Source of the DNA: Lentisphaera profundi
Lineage (GTDB): Bacteria; Verrucomicrobiota; Lentisphaeria; Lentisphaerales; Lentisphaeraceae
Length of the DNA: 64,000 bases
Reading direction: 5' to 3'
Assembly (NCBI RefSeq): GCF_028728065.1
Contig: NZ_CP117812.1
Coordinates: 1,240,001 to 1,304,000 of the forward strand
Below the pieces are notes generated by a model that was not told the DNA's origin, did not search any database, and saw only the letters and a program-made list of their open reading frames with translations. This document shows, in pieces, positions 2,149 to 60,500 of the stretch. Each line of letters opens with the position of its first letter. Position 1 is the stretch's first letter. Both the position numbers and the translations under genes were made by a program.

Positions 2149-3182
2149 ATGAAAAAATCAAATTAGTTCTTAGTATATGTTTATGCCTGGTATTCATTAA
2201 TCCTGCCTGGGCTAATGACTTAAGTCATGAGTCAGTCAAATTGGCTGAAAGCTTCCGCTTTGGTGTACATGAACTGCGTTGGGATAAAGATATCAATGGC
2301 AATAAGGCTATGGATTTCCGGGAAGTATCGCACTCCGCTGATGAAGGTAAAACATGGAAAACAATTGATGATGAGGGCTTTTTTAGAAGTACAGTGGGCT
2401 CTCGACAACAAACACTTGACGATCCTCAGCCTGGAGTCGTTTACAAAGCAGTTACTGGTCGTGAGCTCACGCTGCATATTCACTACCCCCAAGATTGGAA
2501 GGCGAGTGACAAGCGCACAGCTATTCTGTGGTTTCACGGAGGAGGCTTTGCGGGTGGTCATCAATCACAATTTCAAAAATTTGCCAAACATTTCACCCAG
2601 CTCGGCATCATCAATATTCGTGTCGCTTATCGCCTGCGTCTTCTTGATAATGCTAATGGCGGTGGTTTTGATGCTGTCAAAGATGGGCGATCAGCGATTC
2701 GCTGGCTACGCAAAAATGCCGATCGATTTGGTATAGATATAAATAAAGTTATTGCAGGTGGGGACTCTGCAGGAGGGGCGCTAGCTTTAGCCACTTTACG
2801 AGAAGATATCAATGATCCACAAGACAATCTTGCAATTGACGCAAAGCCTAATGCGATTCTTGGTGAAAGTGCTTGGGTACTGCTTCACAAGCCTGGCATT
2901 GAAGCGCGATCTCTCGTATGGCCAATTTTGAATCTTCCGAGCTTGCCCCCCATTTGGATGGGATATGGTGGTCAAGATATTGGCTATAAGGCAGGCAGTG
3001 AACTTGGTGGAGAAGCCTTTGTTAAGGCCCTTAAAGCGAAACAAGGCATTCAGCTCAGTACGCACTTGATTCCCGAGGGTAAGCATGGCTATGGCTTTCG
3101 ACCTCACTACTTCCCACTTTGTCTTGAGTCGATGGAGAAATTTCTGGTGGTTCATGACTATCTACAAGAAAAGCCGAACTAA
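2149..3182 (+). CDS. Secreted alpha/beta-hydrolase (esterase), frameshifted in the signal peptide
   Basis: The mature part is an alpha/beta-hydrolase of the carbohydrate-esterase/lipase type. It has an HGGGFAGG oxyanion motif, the GGDSAGG nucleophile elbow and a C-terminal His in EGKHGYGF. Before these is an EF-hand-like stretch DKDINGNKAMDF. The main frame (clear from 2151) encodes a good signal peptide ending in NPAWA-ND, but has no ATG, GTG or TTG before 2241. The ATG at 2149 is one base out of frame: it reads ATG, six A, then hits TAG. One extra A in the run at 2152-2157 would restore a complete protein. It is paralogous to the esterase at 8922. Likely role: deacylation of polysaccharide outside the cytoplasm. 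Whether the frameshift is real is unknown. Confidence 0.8.
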
Positions 3183-3567
3183 TAGCGCTGTTTTAGTTGA
3201 TAAAATCATGGAAATAGCGTTTTAAGTAAAACGGGCGGAGAGCCTCGCAGCTCCGAGCACAATGCCCGGGGTTGATGATGAATTCGAACTCAAATAATAA
3301 TTAAAAGCGATAAATGCCTTCGGCGAGCGGGGAGCCCCGCTTTATGGCTAATAGTGAGAGCGCTAAGAAGCCTGGTGGGGGCTATTTTATTTATGCGCAG
3401 CTTTGATTAAATCCTCTTATCTAGACTGAAATTCACATTCATATACTGTAATAACTCAACTAAGCAGTAAGAGTCTTTAGGAACATCAGTGTTTAAAATT
3501 CAAAAAAGTGGATGGCTAGGTTTTATGCTAGCACTTATATCAGCGTATTTAAGAGGTATTAAACAGC
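3183..3567. repeat. Intergenic region with a degenerate copy of the multi-hairpin repeat
   Basis: No gene is seen in these 385 bases. The part from about 3222 to 3362 contains hairpins and ends with GCGGGGAGCCCCGC, TTTATGG and CTAATAGTG. This is the same order as the right end of the better-preserved elements at 7056-7188 and 42539-42652 (GC-rich hairpin, then TTATGGGTAAT). It is therefore probably a decayed member of that family. Bases 3363-3567 hold the leader of the next gene. Confidence 0.4.
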
Positions 3568-7022: not shown

Positions 7023-7055
7023 GCCCGAGCCGGACAGTCAGATAAAAAGTATTTA

Positions 7056-7188
7056 TGATTATCCAGAAGAGAGGGTATGATGCTGCGCATACGAGAAGGA
7101 CGCTGTCCCTCTCGAGCTCTCCCTGTAAGGATTTGCCAATCCTTAAGCAGGCGAGTAGGGGCTGTGCCCCTTGTTATGGGTAATCGTG
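7056..7188. mobile_element. MITE-like multi-hairpin element, copy 1, with 10-bp flanking direct repeat
   Basis: The element is bounded by AAAGTATTTA at 7046-7055 and an exact copy at 7189-7198, as expected of a target-site duplication. Its ends are imperfect inverted repeats (TGATTATCC left, GGGTAATCGTG right). Inside are four hairpins: ATGCTGCGCAT at 7080-7090, GGACgctGTCC at 7098-7108, AAGGATT-tgcc-AATCCTT at 7127-7144 and GGGGC-tgt-GCCCC at 7158-7170. It carries no gene, so it would be non-autonomous. It lies in the 190-base gap between two convergent genes (U32 and GST). Related copies are at 42539 and 60264. Confidence 0.75.
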
Positions 7189-7212
7189 AAAGTATTTACC
7201 CACAAGACAGTC

Positions 7213-8012: not shown

Positions 8013-8041
8013 TCAGCTGACGTGTTAGACACGTCAGCTGA
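8013..8041. terminator. Strong perfect hairpin downstream of the SWIB gene
   Basis: TCAGCTGACGTG at 8013-8024 and CACGTCAGCTGA at 8030-8041 form a perfect 12-bp stem with a 5-base loop. It lies 27 bases beyond the stop of the SWIB gene (minus strand). No T-run follows on the minus strand, so it is not a classical intrinsic terminator. It may protect the mRNA 3' end or be a protein-binding palindrome. CAGCTGACGTG also occurs as a direct repeat at 8035-8045. Confidence 0.45.
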
Positions 8042-41038: not shown

Positions 41039-41049
41039 TGATTAAGTAT

Positions 41050-41510
41050 CTAAAACAGTAAGCTGAGTACGAAGTGCTTAATTTGCCGGGTCAAGGGCTG
41101 GCAAGTCCTTGGTGGGAGTGTAAGGGACTCGTCCCTCATAATAAGTCGGGGTCAAGCCCTAATGGGTGGGAACTTAATCTTTAGGTGGGTTTAATTCCCC
41201 GACGCTAGCGTCGCAGCAACATCGCTTGTTAAAAGTAATGAGATACCTCGTGGGCTTGCCCCGAGGAGCTTCATTAGAATCTTAGGTGAAATTAATGTTC
41301 AATACGCATTATCTGATTGTTCAGGTAAGCGCTGGAGCGAAGCTCCGAGTGTTGGGATTGTTAAGGGTCCAAGCACCCTTGAGCGGGGTGTGGGGCGGAG
41401 CCCCAGATGGTAAACACCTCCGGTGGCCGAGGAGCCCTCGGCGCCCTACTAAAAAAGGTAGCAGTACGTATAAAAATCCTTAAATTCCCACTCATTAGTG
41501 GTCAAGCCCG
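41050..41510. repeat. Mosaic of dispersed GC-rich palindromic repeats
   Basis: The gap between araD and the isomerase gene is filled with hairpins such as GACGCTAGCGTC near 41200, GGAGCGAAGCTCC near 41335 and GGGGCGGAGCCCC near 41392. The part at about 41412-41498 closely repeats 4494-4579, sharing CCTCCGGTGGCCGAGGAGCC and CCCTACTAAAAAAGGT. The motif TTAAGTTCCCACCCATTAG is present reversed at about 41159-41177, and as a variant at 41480-41498. A 65-codon frame at 41286 falls inside the repeats and is not credible as a gene. Confidence 0.7.
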
Positions 41511-42479: not shown

Positions 42480-42538
42480 ATGTTTTCACTTAAGAGCCCT
42501 TTATGTTTAGTTATCATTAATTATTGAACTTAGAATAA

Positions 42539-42652
42539 AGGGCATGATGCTGTGCATACGAGTGGGACGCTGTCCCCTCGAACTCCCCTGCAAGGAAATA
42601 CCTTTCCTTGACCAGGCGATCGGGGCTTTGCCCCGCTTTATGGGTAATTATG
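42539..42652. mobile_element. MITE-like multi-hairpin element, copy 2, between 22-bp direct repeats
   Basis: The sequence has the same arrangement as the element at 7056: ATGCTGTGCAT, GGGACgctGTCCC, AAGGAAA-tacc-TTTCCTT at 42592-42609, GGGGC-ttt-GCCCC at 42622-42634, then TTTATGGGTAAT. The central stem differs from copy 1 on both sides in a compensating way. It is flanked by a perfect 22-base direct repeat beginning TTAATTATTGAAC at 42517-42538 and 42653-42674. It has no coding capacity. It lies just before the AraC-type regulator gene and may affect its leader. Confidence 0.78.
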
Positions 42653-42703
42653 TTAATTATTGAACTTAGAATAAGTTTCAATTTACAAAACAAGAGTCAG
42701 ATT

Positions 42704-60082: not shown

Positions 60083-60263
60083 GTATTACTTGAATAGATC
60101 TCTATTTTTATTAGTATGGGCGAAGAAGGTATTTTTTTGCTTGGTTCGGAGATTATAAAATATAGACAATTATTTTTGTGTGTTGTTACAAGAAAATAAT
60201 TTAATATTGATCCTAGTAAAATGAAGGACTGAATTCTAGCTACCGTTGGCTTATTTTTGAATA

Positions 60264-60393
60264 CGATTAATAGAAGAGGGGGTATGATGCGGGGCATACG
60301 AGAAGGGCGTTGTCCCTCTCGAGTTCATCTTTTAAGCTTTTATCTCCTTAAGTAGGCAATTAGAAGATCTGCCCCTTGTTATGAGCAATCGTG
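60264..60393. mobile_element. MITE-like multi-hairpin element, copy 3 (degenerate)
   Basis: This 130-base stretch matches copy 1 in order and spacing: CGATTA..AGAAGAG at the left, GGTATGATGCggGGCATACGAG, GGGCgttGTCCCTCTCGAG, then CCCCTTGTTATGAGCAATCGTG at the right. The central and GC-rich stems have decayed. Left and right flanks (ATTTTTGAAT / GTTTTTTAAT) may be a worn target duplication. It lies between the DUF1592 gene start and a DUF1552 remnant. Confidence 0.65.
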
Positions 60394-60500
60394 TTTTTTA
60401 ATGCCCACTGAGTATTTTCAGACTTAGACTTATACTATTGATCATAGACTTATATAAAGCATATAATGTGAACAAGGGATATCTAAGAGTTTGATATTCC

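Follow-up and report, generated by a model that had tools for sequence, protein, structure and literature searches.

The window, a stretch of 64,000 nt from one of the two contigs of the 5.46-Mb Lentisphaera profundi genome (C2:1240001-1304000), carries three main copies of a short, hairpin-rich element. Copy 1 occupies 7055-7188, its best-folding strand being the minus strand, and is supported by BLAST, alignment, folding and a covariance model (155 bits, E 2.6e-36). From left to right it contains four hairpins: H4 (7080-7090, ATGC-TGC-GCAT), H3 (7092-7114, CGAGAAGGACGCTGTCCCTCTCG, whose plus-strand mismatch becomes a G-U pair when the minus strand is read), H2 (7126-7145, TAAGGATT-TGCC-AATCCTTA, the stem bearing the compensated changes described below) and H1 (7158-7170, GGGGC-TGT-GCCCC). 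Flank comparison identified the target-site duplication AAAGTATTT on either side, at 7046-7054 and 7189-7197. The initial annotation had reported an exact 10-base direct repeat here; the duplication is real and is 9 bp long, because the tenth base, an A, matches on both sides yet belongs to the left end of the element. No ortholog of the gene adjoining copy 1 is present in the sister species, where the best match reaches 37% identity. A perfect palindrome with a 12-bp stem, TCAGCTGACGTG-TTAGA-CACGTCAGCTGA, lies at 8013-8041.

Copy 3 (60263-60393, minus strand, 93.6 bits) is flanked by TTTTTGAAT at 60254-60262 and by TTTTTTAAT at 60394-60402, which are identical in 8 of 9 positions by flank comparison. 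Copy 2 (42539-42652, minus strand, 117.7 bits) lacks its left terminal repeat and bears on both flanks an exact 22-bp repeat, TTAATTATTGAACTTAGAATAA, the left unit of which (42517-42538) stands in place of the terminal repeat, while the right unit follows the element directly (42653-42674). The bases that replace the left terminal repeat are thus those of the right flank. The simplest account would be that a 9-bp duplication, TTAATTATT, arose first and was then lengthened when a few bases copied from the right flank overwrote the left end, perhaps through a short templated copying event that joined TTAATTATT to AGAATAA, which is present in both the element and its flank. A variable-length duplication of the IS1634 type was rejected as an explanation of the 22-bp repeat, since the duplications of the other copies measure 9 bp and the 13 additional bases are found just where the left end was lost.

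All three copies had been recognized from the sequence initially, and only their limits are refined here; the repeat flanking copy 2 had been missed, as had a core-only relative on the plus strand at 41085-41154, which consists of the H2 and H3 double hairpin without the terminal repeats (model match 41041-41178, E 1.2e-5). A further, decayed copy had been placed near 3222-3362. This hairpin-rich stretch does resemble the element at its right end (GGGGAGCCCCGCTTTATGGCTAATAGTG, a terminal-repeat match), but the covariance model does not find it and it is not a full copy. The window gave no match to Rfam at the gathering score.

Ends, duplications and distribution of the MITE family

We compared three Lentisphaera genomes: that of the window, that of L. 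marina IMCC11369 and that of a third species (6.0 Mb, 80 contigs). An alignment of 27 copies defined a MITE of about 135 bp without a coding gene, with the ends CACGATTACCCA...TTATGGGTAATCGTG and imperfect terminal inverted repeats (CACGATTACCCA / TGGGTAATCGTG); the aligned termini read CACGATTACCCA-GAATAAAGGGC... and ...GCCCCGCTTTATGGGTAATCGTG. Variants with a long centre measure about 163-189 bp, and in seven of the longer variants an extra hairpin-bearing stretch (GGTCTTGCCAGACAGGCGGATAAAAAGCATTTGCCCATACGGCAGTAT) is located in the H2 loop. A BLAST search with copy 1 returned 45 matches at more than 40 places in the genome, which excludes chance. The genome-wide covariance search that had been proposed, made with a model built on 25 copies and counted at E up to 0.01, gave 106 matches; among the weaker ones are tandem and core-only copies that lack terminal repeats. 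With the same model, 3 of 60 genomes were positive, all of them Lentisphaera, and the other 57 relatives gave no match. Neither the plasmid records nor a scan of viral contigs with a large neighbouring protein yielded anything, and a limited literature search brought up no account of Lentisphaera repeats.

To assess the duplications, we took the best 9-base match between the flanks of 56 copies from the three species and, as a control, paired the left flank of one copy with the right flank of another. The A/T-rich duplications were exact over 9 of 9 bases in 12 of the 56 copies, compared with 0.6% of the mismatched pairs, and the flanks agreed in at least 8 of 9 positions in 26 copies, compared with 3.9%. 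Every one of the 27 copies checked for placement is intergenic, barring overlaps of a few bases or overlaps with short, doubtful open reading frames, and at least one neighbouring stop codon lies within 55 nt of the element in 19 of them, as measured with a simple ORF finder. Within tandem gene pairs, 11 copies are in the sense and 6 in the antisense orientation, which is no clear bias.

Searching the relatives for empty alleles revealed two sites that are empty in a sister species. L. marina lacks the MITE at the site of copy L004, where the homology of the right flank begins exactly at the duplication and the left flank is too diverged to align. The third species lacks copy L011, which is inserted between the end of a conserved gene and a terminator-like hairpin; this hairpin follows the gene in both species. 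Another insertion (L039/L129) is common to two species with a conserved flank; the family is thus mobile and at the same time old, with insertions that have become fixed. The initial proposal of a MITE-like family with target-site duplications is thus borne out by copy number, terminal repeats, duplications and the two empty sites: the copies are many, the duplications exist and so do the empty alleles. We conclude that the copies in the window belong to a genuine, genus-restricted MITE family that was formerly, and possibly still is, mobile.

Internal hairpins and the shared core

Both strands of the element fold far better than shuffled sequences (z of -4.8 to -6.3), and the strand that folds best, in the one copy tested on both, is opposite to the strand initially read. 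The compensating difference noted between the central stems of copies 1 and 2 was confirmed and is a genome-wide polymorphism, in which the versions GGATT, GGAAA and GGAAT each occur with a matching arm. Pairing is kept in 95-98% of the alignment cells in H1-H3, in 87% in H4 and in 79% in the terminal stem. On a tree, 10 compensated changes fall in the internal stems H1-H3, 7 of these in H2, and none in the terminal stem, which gains mismatches about equally on both strands. The initial annotation had read the conserved stems as a sign that selection acts on an RNA, or on single-stranded DNA that folds to serve as a transposition substrate. This suggestion is partly supported: the internal stems do covary, but the terminal stem decays uncompensated and the duplications are 9 bp long, and we consider a single-stranded substrate unlikely.

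The two central hairpins form a core with the layout GGTCAAGG-stem-CCTTG, GGGGAG, then TTTGAGGG-stem-CCCTC. This core also occurs without the MITE ends, for example as three- to five-unit arrays in each of the three Lentisphaera species. At five intergenic loci that cover all three species, the tandem arrays hold three to seven core units with small hairpins such as TGCGAAGCA and GGGCGAAGCCC interspersed. A core model built on 22 varied sequences, with matches counted at E up to 0.001 (the E-values of such models being rough), found matches in 4 of 195 genomes of the class outside Lentisphaera (G052, G118, G159 and G184). A model built on the same sequences reversed, which served as an uncalibrated control, gave 0 matches in 198 genomes. 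In one genome (G159) the core copies are part of a separate MITE, about 290 bp long, which has the ends GGCTCTGTACTAAAC / GTTTAGTACACAGCC and 8-bp duplications, exact in 2 of its 5 complete copies (TTTTGTTG and TTTTTGAA); in two others (G052 and G184) the core layout is present in other sequence contexts. Neither the MITE body nor the core matched an Rfam family at the thresholds used.

The core looks like an independent structured module, separate from the MITE ends. We prefer the explanation that it is shared across genera by ancestry, with convergence between simple hairpin pairs as the alternative. An integron attC reading, prompted by the inclusion of L. araneosa in a paper on integron integrases, was dropped because the array units that were read have no cassette genes between them.

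A different origin of the compensated changes is possible, though less likely than not. They could have arisen by template-switch correction of quasi-palindromes during replication, with no selection on folding; this would concern the hairpins only and leave the MITE itself unaffected. The seven paired changes in H2 include no wobble pair, which is the pattern that copying of one arm onto the other would produce. On the other hand, G-U pairs are tolerated in H1 and H3, and template switching alone leaves unexplained why the sequence and layout of the core are kept across genera. On one strand of these two stems, G-U pairs account for 11 events compared with 4 A-C mismatches, a difference that is suggestive but not significant (two-sided binomial about 0.12), and we do not claim this strand bias as proof of an RNA function. 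The same bias, the covarying stems and the presence of the core in several genera would also fit a functional non-coding RNA family spread by duplication, with incidental terminal repeats, but the terminal repeats, 9-bp duplications and empty sites show that the unit transposes as a whole, the copies have no clear orientation bias with respect to the genes beside them and the window lacks an Rfam match, which together make that account improbable.

The usual view of a MITE family is that it derives from a single parent IS by shortening, so that the insides of different families should be unrelated. Here a structured centre is common to two MITE families that differ in their ends, in the length of their duplications and in the bacterial family that carries them, within one class. 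We tentatively propose, at somewhat less than an even chance, that the core is a structure-conserved module of the class that was acquired separately by MITEs with unrelated ends and different transposases, and that also exists alone in tandem arrays. If this proposal is true, the core would be a functional part, of RNA or DNA, that aids the success of its carrier and is not a relic of a parent IS. As for its role, we infer weakly that the core most plausibly acts as a folded part of mRNA 3' ends, in which case insertion there would be harmless or useful. Whether the interior of a MITE affects its spread or the adjoining genes is a testable question, and the many natural insertions at 3' ends, some with empty counterparts, provide material for expression comparisons in Lentisphaera.

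The candidate transposase

As had been noted initially, the window holds no transposase, judged from searches with two families, DDE_Tnp_1 (PF01609) and Y1 (PF01797). The proposed search for a matching transposase led to candidate IS4-family elements elsewhere in the genome, with ends similar but not identical to those of the MITE. The resident element is 1,424 bp long and occurs in 5 near-identical copies, flanked by 9-bp A/T-rich duplications and with the ends CACAGCCATCCCATA. Its transposase scored 246.7 bits against NCBIfam NF033592 (cut-off 115) and contains the Y(2)R(3)E(6)K (YREK) motif as YKSRWGIEVFFKQIK from residue 301. IS4 elements in the sister species, at 70% protein identity, make 9-bp duplications too and have the right end CACAATCATCCCATAA. 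This is the end closest to that of the MITE; two substitutions and a single gap separate it from CACGATTACCCATAA, and in 2,000 shuffles the likeness gave p 0.0005 for the CACAATCATCCCATAA pair and 0.005-0.18 for seven others, although it is short and varies with the choice of ISs compared.

The IS4Sa subgroup is characterized by CA ends, a T at position 9 and duplications of 8-10 bp (PMC2266710, Table 1). The MITE resembles it in its CA-beginning ends and in a duplication within that range, but at position 9 it carries a C, in contrast to the T of the resident IS4 element. It differs from the IS4 family in having no transposase gene, and its end is several changes, one of them a gap, away from that of the resident IS. 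The mapped ends of two other multi-copy DDE_Tnp_1 families are different from those of the MITE. Lone terminal-repeat matches followed up in the three genomes proved to be MITE variants, truncated copies or chance hits inside genes, and none led to an autonomous element whose ends are exactly those of the MITE; the identity of the driver can thus only be inferred. At an apparent long-centre MITE copy (C2:693248 of the window's genome), an IS with a 487-aa transposase is inserted in the element. In the same genome, all five copies of an element with a 519-aa transposase lie inside a palindrome of the CCTGGGGCTTCACCCCAGG type, as if the hairpin were the target.

Because the ends and duplications of the MITE resemble those of the 1,424-bp element, cut-and-paste transposition with a transposase acting in trans fits; the 9-bp duplications likewise point to a double-stranded DDE mechanism and not to the single-strand mechanism of IS200/RAYT elements. 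From these sequence features, an IS4-family transposase, with the IS4Sa subgroup closest, is probably the mobiliser. A DDE transposase of this family, provided in trans from a related element or from one that has since died out, would cut MITE copies out as double-stranded DNA, and the excised MITE would be inserted with a 9-bp stagger.

A REP-like element moved as single-stranded DNA by a hairpin-recognising Y1/RAYT transposase is, by comparison, quite unlikely. The genome does contain 17 Y1 transposase matches, some flanked by arrays of other hairpins, and the core double hairpin occurs in tandem arrays without terminal repeats. HUH/Y1 transposition makes no target duplications, however, whereas the full element makes them at 9 bp, and no Y1 gene was seen with the core on its flanks, one gene (L207) having an upstream core fragment only. 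Y1/RAYT mobilisation could nevertheless apply to the core-only copies. Two Y1/RAYT-like genes of the window's genome (C2:575922 and C1:185004) are flanked by repeated GCCAAGCAGGTGCTTGGC hairpins in a classic REP layout unrelated to the MITE core. A family of Y1-domain proteins of about 340 aa (MAHNRVKESCSDQ...) was read at three places and occurs, at similar size, in at least two others; the stretches read show no obvious flanking hairpins. Taken as a whole, we consider it likely that the family is a genus-restricted MITE, mobilised by an IS4-type transposase in trans and carrying an independent hairpin core.

Relation to known systems

RAYT/REP elements are dispersed intergenic hairpins, as are the elements described here, and the genome holds Y1 transposases of its own with hairpin arrays; the terminal repeats and 9-bp duplications of the full MITE are incompatible with the RAYT/REP and IS200/IS605 mechanism. 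The Acido-Lenti-1 RNA (RF01687), listed for Acidobacteria and Lentisphaerae (PMC2864571), is a two-hairpin candidate RNA from the same phylum as the core, but its sequence and spacing differ and neither the MITE nor the core gives a hit to it. Between the tandem core units of one array (L137), two Acido-Lenti-1 matches are located at 2808-2855 and 3042-3089, at 35.9 compared with the Rfam cut-off of 37.

The closest likeness in form is to ERIC, NEMIS/Correia and the QMITEs of Coxiella, which, like the Lentisphaera MITE, are short, non-coding and intergenic, with terminal repeats and target duplications, those of QMITE2 being 7-9 bp long (PMC10969869). The transcripts of these elements are folded, and their ends, host and internal sequence differ from those of the Lentisphaera MITE. 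The family described here is itself another MITE family with IS4-like mechanics. Unlike ERIC, NEMIS and the QMITEs, its internal module recurs in a second MITE, whose ends are unrelated, and in arrays that lack the ends described here, and this shared core, independent of the ends, is the part worth following.
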